Origin: Anaerolinea thermolimosa
Lineage (GTDB): Bacteria > Chloroflexota > Anaerolineae > Anaerolineales > Anaerolineaceae
DNA length: 64,000 nt
Reading direction: 5' to 3'
Assembly (NCBI RefSeq): GCF_001050195.2
Contig: NZ_DF967965.1
Coordinates: forward strand, 1,567,150 to 1,631,149
The notes below the pieces were generated by a model. That model was not told where the DNA came from, made no database searches, and worked only from the letters and a program-made list of their open reading frames with translations. The number at the start of each line of letters is the position of its first letter. Positions within the stretch are counted from its first letter, which is position 1. A program made the position numbers and the translations under genes. Of the stretch, positions 730 to 6,928 are shown one piece after another.

Positions 730-1803
730 TCATTCTTCTATACGAATAACCGGCGTTGATGATGGCTGAAGCGCCGCAACGCTCAATCTGGCGGCTATGG
801 TCTCAGCCAGAGCACTGAACGCCTGGGCTGTGGGGGAATCTGGCCTGGATAGAACAATCGGAGTTCCTGTATCCCCTCCTACCCGCACCGCGGGGTCCAT
901 GGGTACCGAACCAAGAAAAGCCACTCCTGCCGCCTCTGCCAGTGCGCGGCCGCCTCCACTGCCAAAGATGTCGATTCTCGATCCATCAGCCAGTTCGAGA
1001 TAACTCATATTCTCGATAACCCCAAGGATGGGAACATTCAATTCCCGGAACATCTCAAGCCCCCGGCGAGCATCCTCAAGAGAGACCTGCTGAGGCAGGG
1101 TCACGATCACCCCTCCACTTAACGGTACAGACTGCGCCAGGCTTAATTGTGCATCCCCTGTTCCGGGGGGCAAGTCAATCACCATATAATCAAGCTCATT
1201 CCAGGCAACATCGGCCAGAAACTGCCGGATGGCTGAGTGGAGCATTGGACCGCGCCAGATCAAAGGTTGCCCGGGTTTTACTAGAAAACCAATGGACATT
1301 ACCTGCACCCCATAAGCTTCGGCGGGGATGAGTTTTTGCCCGTTTTGTGGGGGTAATCGATTTACTCCCATCATCGTAGGGATATTAGGGCCGTAAATAT
1401 CAGCATCCAGCAAACCCACCCGCGCCCCTTTTTGGGCCAATGCCACAGCAATATTGACCGCAATGGTGGACTTACCGACTCCACCCTTACCGGAAGCAAC
1501 AGCCACAATATTCCGCACCGGTAAAGACAACAGCCCGCGTTGCCTTCCATCAGAAGGGACACTGGCGTCCATTTTAATCTCAACCCGGCTTACCCCAGGA
1601 ACCGCCAGCACTGCTTCTCGAGCTTCCTTCTCAATTTTTGTTCGCAAAGGGCAGGCGGGGGTGGTCAGCATAATGGTAAATCGCACCTGCTCCCCCTCAA
1701 CTTCGAGATCACGAATCATCCGAAGTGTGACTAAATCTTTGTGAAGCTCTGGCTCCTGAACACTGCTGAGTGCCGCCAGAACATCTTCCTTGGAAACTCC
1801 CAT
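730..1803 (-). CDS. mrp: Mrp/NBP35-family P-loop ATPase with N-terminal MIP18 (DUF59) domain
   Basis: This 357-residue protein has an N-terminal MIP18/DUF59 domain (about residues 5-80) and a ParA/MinD-like ATPase domain with the deviant Walker A motif GKGGVGKST near residue 105. Mrp/ApbC proteins act as carriers of Fe-S clusters in the cytoplasm, which fits a place directly behind genes for Fe-S subunits of complex I. The usual CxxC after the ENMSY motif, which bridges a cluster in the dimer, is absent: the protein reads [18 protein letters not shown] there. Some Mrp proteins are known without it, so cluster carriage may use other ligands or be lost. It lies 3 bases behind the small CxxC gene and 4 bases before ricT. 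Confidence 0.92.
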
Positions 1804-1806
1804 GAT

Positions 1807-2172
1807 TTATCCTTTCGTAATATTTCCGTTAATATCACCTGAAAGGTTTTCTGACTGTCCTTTCAAGAACTGTTCCACTTCTTTCTGCAACAACCGGTGT
1901 TGTTCAACGAGATCCTTATCTGCGCCTTTAAAACGACGCACTGTTTGTTTCGCACAGATCGTACACCCTCTCATTGCCCGGAATGAATCCGAATTACAAC
2001 TGATACATCCACCCATCCTCACCATCATCAGGACAAAAGAACACCGCTCGATCTGACTGGCTGTAGGTTGGCTTACCCTTTCAACTAATTTCCGCCACTC
2101 TTCTCCACGCAAACTCGCAAGCTGTGGAAGTACCCGAAGGGGAAAAAGTAACTCAGTGTCCGGATTATACAT
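1807..2172 (-). CDS. Small conserved-looking protein with CX2C-X10-CX2C motif
   Basis: I do not recognise this 121-residue protein. Residues about 55-75 contain GGCISC and GCTIC ten residues apart, four cysteines spaced as in a zinc ribbon or a small Fe-S site. The C-terminal half is charged and probably helical (KDLVEQHRLLQKEVEQFL). There is no signal peptide or membrane segment. A GAGGTGATTGG sequence precedes the ATG. It sits between nuoI and mrp in one operon, so a part in Fe-S cluster assembly or delivery to the Nuo subunits is a reasonable guess, but nothing in the sequence proves it. Confidence 0.7.
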   Translation of the reverse strand: MYNPDTELLFPLRVLPQLASLRGEEWRKLVERVSQPTASQIERCSFVLMMVRMGGCISCNSDSFRAMRGCTICAKQTVRRFKGADKDLVEQHRLLQKEVEQFLKGQSENLSGDINGNITKG

Positions 2173-2217: not shown

Positions 2218-2814
2218 TCATGGAGCAGCCTTTTTTGCGGCTTTGGCTTCTCGCTCTGCGGTTTCCCTGGCAAAATTCGCTGGCCGAATCTTTGCATAAT
2301 ATGAGGCTGGTTTACTCAATTTATTCAAGTCGAAAATATGCTCCTTAAAGCGATCGTAGGATGCAATTTCATAGTTATGATCCATTTTAATCGCATCAAA
2401 TGGGCAATACTCAGCACAATAACCACAATTCATGCAGATATCTACATCAATATAAAATTCAGCAGGGGCCGGCACAGGCTTACCCGTCACAGGGTCATTT
2501 GTGCGCACAATCCAAATACACTGCGGAGGGCAAACTTTGGCACAAATACCACACGAAGTGCAACGTAAAGCCCTTTCTCCATTTTCCCCCTCATCATATA
2601 CAAGAAAAGGAATATACCGGAATTCTTCCGGTACCGGTAGCTTTTCTTCGGGGTACTGGATTGAGAAAATACCTTTGGCTTCTATCGATGCACGCTGACG
2701 AATGCCCTCCTCGGTAAAGTAGCGCTTTTTTCCAGCTTTAAAATCTTCCAGATACGTATCGATAAAGTGCCGGAATGTGACCGCTAAACCTTTTAAGACA
2801 CCCATTCCATTCAT
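2218..2814 (-). CDS. nuoI: NADH-quinone oxidoreductase subunit I (NuoI)
   Basis: This 198-residue ferredoxin-type subunit has the two 4Fe-4S motifs of NuoI, CTSCGICAKVCPPQC and CMNCGYCAEYCPFDA, which pass electrons from the N-module towards NuoB in the peripheral arm of complex I. The N-terminal half shows the usual LAVTFRHFIDTYLEDF amphipathic segment. The start at 2812-2814 is supported by a very good AGGAGGTGAT ribosome site just ahead. The lysine- and alanine-rich C-terminal tail (AEREAKAAKKAAP) is ordinary for the family. It is the third gene of a nuoB-nuoCD-nuoI run; the other complex I subunits are not in the window. Confidence 0.96.
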   Translation of the reverse strand: MNGMGVLKGLAVTFRHFIDTYLEDFKAGKKRYFTEEGIRQRASIEAKGIFSIQYPEEKLPVPEEFRYIPFLVYDEGENGERALRCTSCGICAKVCPPQCIWIVRTNDPVTGKPVPAPAEFYIDVDICMNCGYCAEYCPFDAIKMDHNYEIASYDRFKEHIFDLNKLSKPASYYAKIRPANFARETAEREAKAAKKAAP

Positions 2815-2822
2815 ATCACCTC

Positions 2823-4562
2823 CTATCGGTCCACTTCACCAAGCACAATATCGATCGATCCCAGAATAACCACCACATCTGCCACTTTGCCTCCTCGTGC
2901 CATTTCAGCGAGGGTATGCAGATTGATAAAAGAGGGAGCTCGCACATGGTATCGCCAGGGATTGGGTTTCCCGTTTGATACCACATAAAACCCCAATTCT
3001 CCTTTGGGACCCTCCACCCGTCCATACGATTCCCCGGTAGGTACACGGACCTGCCATTGGGGTTTTCCAGAAATAACCGGGCCTTCAGGGATATCGCGCA
3101 ACACCTGCTTAAGAATGCGTATACTCTGGCGAATCTCGTCTAGACGGATTAAGTACCGGTCGTAAATATCACCATGGTAACGCACAGCTACATCAAACTC
3201 AAAACGATCATAAATGCTGTATGGATCAGCCCGCCTTAGATCATAAGGCACCCCGGAAGCCCGTAATACAGGCCCTGTGGCTGACAATGCGATTGCCCGC
3301 TCAGCTGTTAACACACCTACTCCCTCACAACGGGTACGGACGATTTCGTTCTTCGTGAGGTATCGATCAATTTCATCTATTTTTCTGGGCAATCGATTTT
3401 CCACCAGATCCCGCACCCGCTCCAGCACCCCCTCAGGAAGATCGCGAGCCACCCCCCCAAAGCGGAAGTAATTACACATCATCCGCGAGCCTGAAACTGC
3501 CTCAAAAATATCCAGAATCAACTCCCGCTCTTCAAGTGCATAAAGCACTGGTGTGAAAAACGCCCCCAGATCATTTAATAAAAAGCCGACAGCGACTAAA
3601 TGGCTCACGATTCTGGTTAATTCTGCCATCATCACCCGGATATATTCTGCTCTTTCAGGGGGCTTTATCCCCATTAGCTTTTCCACAGCCAGAGCATATC
3701 CAAAATTATTACTCATCGAGCTGATATAATCCAGCCGGTCAGTGAAAGGCATATTCTGAATCCAGGTACAACGTTCACCAATTTTCTCATGATTTCGATG
3801 GAGGTATCCAAAAACCGGCTTAAGATCCACAATGGTCTCACCATCCAGAACCACCACCATTCTGAATACCCCATGGGTCGACGGATGCTGAGGCCCAAGA
3901 TTTACAATCAGGCGGTCAGTTTTAAGCTCTGATCCTGAATCCTCCAGGTACTTCCGTAAACCTCTGTAGAGAGCTTCGTCTCCGTCGGGCGTCCAACTTT
4001 CTGGATCAAATCCAGGAGGATATTGGACGTTATCATGAAGCGGAGCTACATCTTCCGCCCGTCGGACATGGCCCTCAGGCCACCGGCTTTTATACGGTTT
4101 GGCATCTTCTTCATAATAAGGTTCTTTCCAATCCTTGCGCAACGGATGTCCTTCGAAGCCTTCCCACATCAAAATTCGCCGTAAGTCCGGATGGCCCTCG
4201 AAACGAATCCCGAGCAAATCCCAGGCTTCTCTCTCCTGAAAATCCGCTCCAGGCCAGACTGGAACGACAGACGGCACTATCGGATCTTCCCGTGGAACCT
4301 GCACCTTGAAGACAAATGGCGCACCGCCGATCGTCTGAAGGGCGTGATAAACCACCTCCATCTTTCCATCAGGCAAATAATCCACTCCGGTCACCGATGA
4401 TAGCAAATCATATCCAAGTTTGTCCCGTAGAAGGAAAGCAAACTCAATCAGGCGACTTACCGGGACAATGACACCTTCGTATCCCGGCCTGGAATCTGCT
4501 ACCACCCAATCGGGCAGGAGATCACCATGCCTGGTTGTAAGCGTCGACTCATGGTCAGTCAT
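2823..4562 (-). CDS. nuoCD: Fused NADH-quinone oxidoreductase subunits C/D (NuoCD)
   Basis: This 579-residue protein is a natural fusion. Residues about 1-165 are NuoC (30-kDa subunit; [23 protein letters not shown]), and about 185-579 are NuoD (49-kDa subunit; [14 protein letters not shown] and the HRNHEKIGE region that lines the quinone site). The C-terminal end has the usual DIVLGEVDR. Together with NuoB and NuoI these subunits form the quinone-binding Q-module of complex I on the cytoplasmic side. C/D fusions are known in several lineages, including gamma-proteobacteria. The start overlaps the nuoB stop by 4 bases (ATGA), a sign of translational coupling. Confidence 0.96.
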
Positions 4563-5248
4563 GCAGCACCTCCCTGCCCAGCATCTTGGGTTGATTGATC
4601 TCCTTCGACGCCCTGAGCCTGTTCCTCTGCTAGCTTACGAGTGTATTCACGAATCTCTTCAAATTTAGCCGGGCTCATTAAGTCCGGCCCCAGTACGGGC
4701 ACCGGAATCGGAGGAACAGGCCTGCGTGAGTACCAGCGAGAGGTTTTGATGGATTCTTTTTCAACTTTTTTCTGGAGAGTCATTAACCCGTGAAGCAACG
4801 CCTGCGGCGTAGGGGGGCATCCCGGAATATACACATCAACCGGTAAAAACTTGTCAATTCCAGAGACTACATTGTATCCTTCTTTGAAAGGGCCCCCTCC
4901 GGAGGCACAGGCTCCCATCGCGACAACATATTTGGGTTCTGGCATCTGGTTATATAAGCGCACAATCTGCGGAACCATCTTCTTTGTAACCGTTCCCGAT
5001 ACAATCATCACATCTGCCTGGCGTGGGCTGGGACGCATCACTTCCATTCCAAACCGCGAGAAGTCATAACGGCTGGCGGCAGTACAGATCATTTCTATGG
5101 CGCAACAGGCCAGACCAAACATCATCGGCCATAAGGAGTTCTTTCGGCTCCAATTATAGATTCGATCAATGGTCGTGATATTGACCTGCCCGCGCATTTC
5201 TGGGGGAATATCATATCCAGGTGAATCAAGCGTTTCGATTGGGTTCAT
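4559..5248 (-). CDS. nuoB: NADH-quinone oxidoreductase subunit B (NuoB)
   Basis: This 229-residue protein is the NuoB/PSST subunit that holds the N2 4Fe-4S cluster and hands electrons to quinone. The cluster ligands are visible as the tandem cysteines in [10 protein letters not shown], the later [10 protein letters not shown] and the [11 protein letters not shown] motif. The C-terminal 40 residues ([22 protein letters not shown]) are a low-complexity extension beyond the usual end. It is the first gene of the operon that reads through nuoCD, nuoI, the CxxC protein, mrp and ricT. A strong sigma-70 type promoter lies about 90 bases upstream. Confidence 0.96.
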
Positions 5249-5341: not shown

Positions 5342-5369
5342 ATTGTAACATTAGCTAATGTACTGTCAA
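5342..5369 (-). promoter_or_regulatory. nuoB operon promoter with palindromic operator
   Basis: On the minus strand TTGACA (5369-5364) and TACAAT (5347-5342) are 16 bases apart. The spacer contains the perfect 14-bp palindrome ACATTAGCTAATGT (5348-5361), which abuts the -10 box. A repressor bound there would block RNA polymerase. The predicted start near 5335 gives a leader of about 87 bases before nuoB. The divergent winged-helix gene at 5427 encodes an obvious candidate regulator. Confidence 0.75.
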
Positions 5370-5391
5370 GTCGAATTTGCGCGAAAATAAT

Positions 5392-5420
5392 TTTGCATAA
5401 TTCACATGTGAAGTTATAAT
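5392..5420 (+). promoter_or_regulatory. Promoter of the winged-helix gene with a 12-bp palindrome; probable leaderless start
   Basis: TTTGCA (5392-5397) and TATAAT (5415-5420) are 17 bases apart. The perfect palindrome TTCACATGTGAA (5401-5412) fills most of the spacer and looks like an operator. The expected transcription start falls at about 5427, the A of the ATG, and no Shine-Dalgarno sequence is present, so the mRNA is probably leaderless. Confidence 0.65.
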
Positions 5421-6118: not shown

Positions 6119-6147
6119 TTGACTTTTAATCTTCCTCTTGCTACTAT
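6119..6147 (+). promoter_or_regulatory. Sigma-70 type promoter ahead of the structured RNA candidate
   Basis: TTGACT (6119-6124) and TACTAT (6142-6147) are exactly 17 bases apart. The predicted start is about 6154, immediately before a perfect hairpin. No convincing coding frame with a ribosome site follows. Confidence 0.65.
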
Positions 6148-6153
6148 AAAATT

Positions 6154-6358
6154 GCCGAAGGTTAAGAACCTTCGGATAAAGGGAGCCCCGAGAAATTCGG
6201 TAAGCACTCATCGAGGCCTCAGTCATAAACCGATTAGGTTTTGTCAGTGGGCCGAAAGTAAATCGGCACCACAAAAGTGCAAAACTAAAAAGGGACTAGG
6301 CACTCAAAGGAATGAGAAAGCTGGACGGGTTACTTGGGGCCCCTGATTTTTAATTTTT
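6154..6358 (+). ncRNA. Unassigned structured small RNA candidate (about 190-205 nt)
   Basis: A promoter-led, intergenic, hairpin-rich segment lies between the regulator gene and the convergent hpt. Seen in the sequence are a 9-bp hairpin (6155-6163 with 6167-6175), and a long-range closing stem in which AGGGAGCCCC (6180-6189) pairs with GGGGCCCCT (6336-6344) around one bulged A. Inside are CCTCAGTC (6217-6224) pairing with GACTAGG (6294-6300) around one bulged C, AAACC/GGTTT (6227-6231 with 6237-6241), and GTGGGCCGA with TCGGCACCAC (6247-6255 with 6263-6272). A U-rich run follows the closing stem (6346-6358), so that stem may double as the terminator. It lacks the hallmarks I know for tmRNA, RNase P, SRP, 6S or common riboswitches. 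The 3' end slightly overlaps the hpt stop on the other strand. Confidence 0.6.
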
Positions 6359-6928
6359 ACCAAAGAGAACTTCTGGTTTGAGGATACCTATAAAAGGTAA
6401 ATTTCGATATCTTTCTCCATAATCCAATCCATATCCCACAATAAAATAATCTGGCATGTCAAACCCTTTATATCGAATTGGAATTTCAACCAGTCTGCGG
6501 CTGGTTTTATTCAATAAGGCACAAACCTCTAGAGAAGCTGGCCCACGTGCCTGAAGACTCCGCAGCAAATAATTCAGGGTTAATCCGGTATCCACAACGT
6601 CTTCTACAAAAATAACATGCCTATCCGTAATGGATAGATCCAGATCCTTGATCACTCGCACTACCCCCCGATCGCGTTCTTCACTGGAATAGCTGGATAC
6701 TGCCATAAAATCGACTTCTACCACTATTGGTATCGCTCGCACCAGATCAGCCAGAAAACACATCACCCCTTTTAAGGCTCCAACGAGCAGAGGCTTTTTT
6801 CCGGCGTAATCTCGAGCAATTTCACTACCCAGATCGATCACACGCTGATGGATCTCCTCTTGGGTCAGAAACACTTCTTGAATGTCTCGACTGAGTTCTT
6901 GAAATTCAACCGGAATGTTTTTTTTCAT
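6350..6928 (-). CDS. hpt: Hypoxanthine phosphoribosyltransferase
   Basis: This 192-residue cytoplasmic enzyme converts hypoxanthine or guanine plus PRPP into IMP or GMP in purine salvage. The PRPP-binding loop is clear as VIFVEDVVDTGLTL, and the N-terminal LVGALKGVMCF and VDFMAVSSY segments are the usual PPi-loop and flexible-loop regions. Length matches the family. It is the last gene of the rpoN-led minus-strand run, 2 bases behind a small nuclease-fold protein, and faces the structured RNA candidate. A purine salvage gene has no evident link to the sigma-54 genes and may also use an internal promoter. Confidence 0.95.
   Translation of the reverse strand: MKKNIPVEFQELSRDIQEVFLTQEEIHQRVIDLGSEIARDYAGKKPLLVGALKGVMCFLADLVRAIPIVVEVDFMAVSSYSSEERDRGVVRVIKDLDLSITDRHVIFVEDVVDTGLTLNYLLRSLQARGPASLEVCALLNKTSRRLVEIPIRYKGFDMPDYFIVGYGLDYGERYRNLPFIGILKPEVLFGKN

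Follow-up and report, generated by a model that had tools for sequence, protein, structure and literature searches.

How are the divergent promoters between nuoB and the gene of a winged-helix protein controlled in Anaerolinea thermolimosa, and which signal does this protein sense? The gap between the two genes (178 bp) lies in the window analysed here, a stretch of 64,000 nucleotides from the 4.17 Mb genome of this bacterium (6 contigs), and it separates the winged-helix gene from a cluster of nuo genes followed by an mrp/apbC-type gene (Table 1). The original prediction, made from the letters of the window, recognised two different operator-like palindromes in the promoter spacers and suggested two repressors, or one repressor for one of the two sites. 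Both promoters, that of nuoB (TTGACA-16-TACAAT) and the divergent one of the regulator, are indeed present in the sequence, and the coordinates confirm that ACATTAGCTAATGT lies in the nuo spacer and TTCACATGTGAA in the regulator spacer. The idea of an operator between divergent promoters that look jointly regulated also stands, but the palindromes are probably not this operator: the inverted repeat which is conserved in the relatives is a third element, at positions 5374-5403.

Table 1. Features of the nuo-regulator locus (positions are those of the window; for minus-strand promoter elements the higher position is given first).
Feature	Position	Strand	Basis and remarks
nuoB	4559..5248	-	PF01058; nuoB_fam above cut-off
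nuoCD fusion	2823..4562	-	PF00329 and PF00346
nuoI-like 4Fe-4S ferredoxin subunit	2218..2814	-	Fer4 families; the name nuoI follows from gene order and reading
121-aa ORF between nuoI and mrp	1807..2172	-	no Pfam match
mrp/apbC-type Fe-S carrier (NUBPL P-loop NTPase and FeS_assembly_P)	730..1803	-	PF10609 (E=3.3e-98), PF01883 (E=2.4e-22)
SufR-like winged-helix regulator, 212 aa, C154/C167/C198	5427..6065	+	Pfam HTH_20, HTH_39, HTH_24, HTH_5 and others; alignments
nuo promoter -35, TTGACA	5369..5364	-	sequence; 4 nt from operator
nuo promoter -10, TACAAT	5347..5342	-	sequence; 16-nt spacer 5363..5348
regulator promoter -35, TTGCAT	5393..5398	+	sequence; inside operator
regulator promoter -10, TATAAT	5415..5420	+	sequence; 16-nt spacer 5399-5414; 6 nt before ATG
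conserved operator, 28-30 bp inverted repeat	5374..5403		de novo motif; dyad between 5388 and 5389; predicted regulator site
palindrome 1, ACATTAGCTAATGT	5348..5361		inside nuo promoter spacer; not conserved
palindrome 2, TTCACATGTGAA	5401..5412		inside regulator promoter spacer; first three bases overlap operator; not conserved

The conserved repeat comes from a symmetric de novo motif search with random starts in 85 nonredundant gaps (20,620 bp), which remained from 93 rows after the removal of eight that were duplicates or had a gap of more than 800 bp (L062, L070, L087, L103, L109, L118, L126 and L130). The motif, AATTAaGcAAAt-N4-aTTTgCtTAATT, has a log-likelihood of 909, compared to 76-97 in six Markov-shuffled sets. 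It scores above 10 bits in 77 of the 85 gaps, the eight others being those of L037, L078, L100, L113, L124, L128, L135 and L136, and in a leave-one-out analysis 77 of 85 gaps exceed the 99% quantile of shuffled gaps (8.9). The operator of the window is among the weaker ones, with 9 of 15 positions symmetrical; it scores 21.1 bits, and 19.0 bits in the leave-one-out analysis, which is the best value of the 64 kb (the next one is 5.8). Shuffling the 64 kb 20 times gave best scores between 2.1 and 18.8 bits. Since one shuffled window reached 18.8 bits, close to the 19.0 bits of the real one, the case for this operator is made by its conservation and its place, and not by the score alone. Its place is between the two palindromes, where it abuts the -35 element of nuo and overlaps the promoter of the regulator.

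The spacing between this operator and the nuo promoter is conserved. The motif GTCAA, which is TTGAC on the nuo strand, occurs within 45 nt of the operator in 63 of 77 gaps, and in all 63 the distance is 1-7 nt (exactly 4 nt in 25 gaps), while shuffled flanks place it within 10 nt in 1.4% of cases. The distance is looser on the regulator side: from the centre of the operator to the start of the regulator gene it is 37-40 nt in 32 of the 77 gaps and 18-47 nt in 56, whereas the 21 remaining gaps have longer distances, of up to 294 nt. The -10 element of the regulator is found in 60 of 77 gaps, that of the window included, and in 42 of them 6-7 nt separate its end from the start codon. Given this short distance and the scarcity of letters resembling a Shine-Dalgarno sequence ahead of the regulator (5 of 77 gaps), the mRNA of the regulator is probably leaderless.

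When the operator is searched as an IUPAC pattern with at most two mismatches, 26 places are found in 61 genomes, spread over 20 of them; the 41 other genomes show none because the pattern is strict. Fifteen of these places are at the nuo locus, and the remaining 11 compare with 14 for the reversed control. Judged from this distribution, the operator appears to be dedicated to the nuo locus rather than global. In one of the 15 cases, that of genome G060, the place adjoins iscX and the regulator is found at a distance of 1.3 kb. A wider regulon was considered: one further place is found in the genome of A. thermolimosa (G000:C1:2572229-2572256), within the initial codons of a 116-aa ORF in the vicinity of ORFs that read as ParA-like and integrase-like, and it was taken as a chance match.

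The regulator and nuoB form a conserved pair. A match to the regulator is found in 53 of the 61 genomes (that of A. thermolimosa included), and 27 of the 30 regulator loci fetched from these genomes contain nuoB, which is divergent in all 27. The proteins of the relatives are 25-38% identical to the regulator of the window and 67-86% identical to its NuoB. Similarly, among 80 NuoB loci from Anaerolineales and other Chloroflexota, a divergent regulator is found in 66 (that of L118 is 2.5 kb away), and there is none in the other 14 within the DNA stretch examined. Of the nine regulator-less loci with a 3 kb upstream flank, L098 and L110 possess an operator, six do not (their best scores are at most 7.5 bits), and in L060 the sequence near nuoB is masked. 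The five others have shorter flanks, with operator scores of 12-28 bits in L086, L092, L106 and L119 and of -8.2 in L117. For L086, L106 and L119, a regulator gene may lie past the end of the contig. The ORF that follows in L092 cannot be recognised as a regulator. Three of these loci (L092, L098 and L110) thus have an operator of 21-28 bits but, in the upstream sequence examined, no recognisable regulator gene.

The Pfam families HTH_20, HTH_24 and HTH_5 match the N-terminal part of the regulator above their cut-offs, and the AlphaFold model (mean pLDDT 86.8, pTM 0.69) confirms the winged helix. Residues 3-75 of the model superimpose on 1uly with a Z score of 10.4 and an rmsd of 2.5 over 66 aligned residues; when the whole model is used in the fold search, the chains listed cover the winged helix alone (residues 2-77). 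The score for the ArsR/SmtB family (NF033788) is 26.8 bits, below the cut-off of 55. The C-terminal part has three cysteines, spaced C154-X12-C167-X30-C198. Residue counts were made on 81 rows, four of the 85 being short or containing X: the aligned columns hold cysteine in 77 (C154), 77 (C167) and 75 (C198) rows, and the signature CP[YFH]-X9..12-C-x2-D plus a further cysteine is present in 77 of 81 regulators. In L082, L123, L128 and L135 all three cysteines are lost together. The sensing of a cluster would therefore not be universal, since these four regulators remain beside nuoB; their operators score 17.8 bits (L082), 20.8 bits (L123), 7.2 bits (L128) and 7.6 bits (L135).

A residue of the recognition helix, Arg37, may contribute to the specificity for the operator. 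A G of the operator is present in 123 of the 138 half-sites that belong to the 69 rows with Arg37, compared to 3 of 16 half-sites for the eight rows with Gln or His at this position (Fisher test, 6e-9, kinship ignored). This comparison was made on 77 rows, with a site above 10 bits for the Arg37 rows and above 5 bits for the others. On the tree, residue 37 changes four times and the G of the operator five times, with two independent pairs on supported branches. On average, 1.1 independent pairs change in the same way, 0.0 in the opposite way (a few of the 200 pairings contain one) and 0.8 show no difference, and the correlation is not significant in a sign test on these tree pairs. It is therefore only suggestive that the replacement of Arg37 accompanies the loss of the G.

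The genome of A. thermolimosa contains another homologue of the regulator, about 24-26% identical to it, beside sufCBD (the names of the suf genes come from reading and from tblastn comparison with relatives); this protein is the SufR. The gene sufC is near a second regulator match in 18 of the 22 genomes fetched, A. thermolimosa included. The corresponding 18 gaps contain a different inverted repeat of 32 bp, with a score of at least 16 bits in 17 of them, and this repeat is presumably where SufR binds in these bacteria. The best score of the nuo motif in the same 18 gaps is 9.8 bits. An operator common to the nuo regulator and SufR was considered and rejected: 17 of the 18 suf gaps carry the other repeat. 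The suf repeat reads TCAATAT...ATATTGA between sufR and sufC, for example at L049:5082-5113. By eye, a shared core TTAAGAT/ATCTTAA is seen in some nuo sites, but with another spacing.

The phylogenetic tree, built by a 'quick' method, separates the two proteins. A branch with a support of 100 sets the 18 suf rows apart, and the regulator of the window belongs to another supported set, composed of 32 nuo rows and one unplaced row. The regulators adjacent to nuo are not one clade (p-AU 0.0004), because three of them, L037, L100 and L113, group with SufR: they cluster with the 18 SufR rows with supports of 97 and 99, and all three lack the operator. The TIGR02702 model (SufR_cyano) gives the regulator of the window 27.3 bits, below its cut-off of 178.8.

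Genes related to iron-sulfur clusters are found near the regulator: mrp in the nuo operon, and iscX in many relatives. According to tblastn, iscX is present in 34 of the 85 nuoB-regulator gaps, which amounts to 34 of the 39 gaps of at least 250 bp, and all 34 copies are on the strand of nuoB. Pfam recognises IscX in 16 of 61 genomes and does not recognise it in that of A. thermolimosa. The role of IscX is debated, and its position next to this regulator is a clue to it. CxxC-type cysteines are seen in the 121-aa ORF between nuoI and mrp.

No genes of the membrane arm of complex I are recognised beside the nuoBCDI cluster of the window. The genome has three NuoH homologues, at about 683, 903 and 2472 kb of G000:C1. 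The first one belongs to a separate membrane-arm cluster, where NuoH was recognised by Pfam and nuoA, J, K, L, M and N by reading, and there is no nuoB match in the 18 kb around it. The two others each have a nuoB homologue of their own (52% and 42%).

Downstream of the regulator, positions 6130-6370 of the plus strand form a candidate unannotated structured RNA, a long rod-like hairpin of -84 kcal/mol (z -7.3), the shape of which recalls 6S RNA. It has no Rfam match up to E=1. It is found in 3 of 41 genomes, namely that of A. thermolimosa and two of the same genus (78-83% identity), and compensatory changes occur in 6 of the 55 consensus pairs of these three sequences.

We consider it likely that the SufR-like regulator binds the conserved operator, represses its own gene, controls nuoBCDI-mrp and senses an iron-sulfur cluster. 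The regulator, presumably as a dimer, would occupy the single inverted repeat. Autorepression is expected because the operator overlaps the regulator's own -35 element, which the bound protein would cover. On the other side, the protein would sit directly upstream of the -35 element of nuo, and the conservation of synteny and spacing argues for the control of nuoB, nuoCD, nuoI, the 121-aa ORF and mrp and, in many relatives, of iscX as well. An iron-sulfur cluster on C154, C167 and C198 is the most likely signal. DNA would be bound as long as the cluster is present, and the loss of the cluster upon iron shortage or exposure to O2 or NO would lead to release and derepression. As for the direction of the effect on nuo, repression seems somewhat more probable than activation, since the core promoter of nuo deviates little from the consensus and the known relatives act by repression.

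Alternatively, the same regulator could bind the same operator, repress its own gene and activate nuo by a contact with RNA polymerase, so that complex I would be made only when iron-sulfur clusters are available. The narrow range of distances between the operator and the -35 element of nuo, together with the looser placement on the regulator side, is what such a contact would predict. Activation is nevertheless the less probable of the two, because the core promoter is near consensus, and most activator-dependent promoters are not; moreover, both relatives that have been characterised, SufR and ArnR, act as repressors.

It is unlikely that the winged-helix regulator responds to a signal other than an iron-sulfur cluster, such as zinc bound by the three cysteines or a thiol switch formed by them. 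The cluster is a prediction, and three cysteines would also suit zinc or thiol chemistry, but their spacing is as in SufR and similar to that of ArnR. In addition, iron-sulfur genes adjoin the regulator, and the joint loss of all three cysteines in four of 81 rows is expected for ligands of one cofactor.

It is still less probable that the regulator acts on its own gene alone, nuo being adjacent by accident and the constant distance to its -35 element reflecting the packing of promoters. Autorepression by itself would account for the overlap between the operator and the regulator promoter, but it leaves unexplained that the pair is kept across an order despite the low identity of the regulators, that the operator is spaced more strictly from nuo than from the regulator, and that three nuoB loci keep the operator without a recognised regulator.

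The two palindromes fare worst. In the whole genome of A. thermolimosa, exact copies of either are found only at this locus. Near copies with at most two mismatches are not in excess over the reversed controls (7 places compared to 12 for ACATTAGCTAATGT, 65 compared to 62 for TTCACATGTGAA). Among the 85 gaps upstream of the orthologues, ACATTAGCTAATGT with up to three mismatches occurs in one, that of the window itself, and TTCACATGTGAA with up to two mismatches occurs in two, those of the window and L127; neither is present in L009 or L030, the two gaps available from the same genus. Perfect palindromes of 12 bp or longer number 16 in the window (14 of 12 bp and 2 of 14 bp), compared to about 15.8 expected from first-order Markov windows (n=10), and the homologous gaps contain a perfect palindrome of at least 12 bp in 25 of 85 cases and of at least 14 bp in 13 of 85. 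That ACATTAGCTAATGT and TTCACATGTGAA are operators by which two repressors, or the regulator at one of them, block the promoters from the spacers is very improbable: both are perfect, both lie inside a spacer, and a 178-bp gap would contain two such palindromes, at least 14 bp long in one case, with a probability of 0.003, uncorrected for the number of gaps scanned, but conservation and genome counts led to their rejection. They are real letters with weak statistics and no regulon, probably coincidental, and they may be in use in this species alone. There is no need for two repressors either, as a single regulator acting at a single site accounts for what is conserved.

Complex I requires iron-sulfur clusters in large numbers, and we know of no textbook arrangement in which a cognate iron-sulfur sensor controls it. 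With the SufR-like regulator acting at the conserved operator, our reading, which we hold on balance, is that Anaerolineales have a SufR paralogue dedicated to complex I, a local iron-sulfur sensor with an operator of its own, by which the levels of NuoB-CD-I, Mrp and often IscX would be matched to the supply of clusters. Among the matches listed for open papers, no title or abstract start describes a SufR-like regulator of nuo, or two paralogues with diverged operators that share out the control of suf and nuo; the single listed paper that combines SufR with Chloroflexi is an obituary. RegPrecise 3.0 includes a collection for Chloroflexi (PMC3840689). An operator, a regulator and a candidate specificity residue are now named in a widespread and poorly studied phylum.

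The iron-sulfur-sensing regulator IscR of E. coli controls the isc operon, which contains iscX. The locus studied here is similar in that an iron-sulfur-sensing regulator would control a locus which contains iscX in many relatives; it differs in that IscR belongs to the Rrf2 family, has another fold, and acts on isc instead of nuo.

ArnR of Corynebacterium is a winged-helix protein with three cysteines (179, 193 and 223) and a 4Fe-4S cluster, which controls narKGHJI, an operon of nitrate respiration (PMC12343034). It has in common with the regulator the winged helix and the three cysteines, and a respiratory operon is also the predicted target of the regulator. The respiratory enzyme is different and ArnR has a further target, hmp; the two proteins are likened here by these described features.

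SufR from cyanobacteria and from Mycobacterium tuberculosis (Rv1460) has, like the regulator, a winged helix followed by a C-terminal C-X12-C and a third cysteine. In Rv1460, C203, C216 and C244 are reported to be needed for function (PMC6034842), and the first spacing of X12 is common to both proteins. Cyanobacterial SufR is encoded divergently from its target operon and is autoregulated; it represses sufBCDS and itself (PMC7058544). Unlike SufR, the regulator of A. thermolimosa adjoins nuoBCDI-mrp and not suf, and its operator is unlike that of suf.
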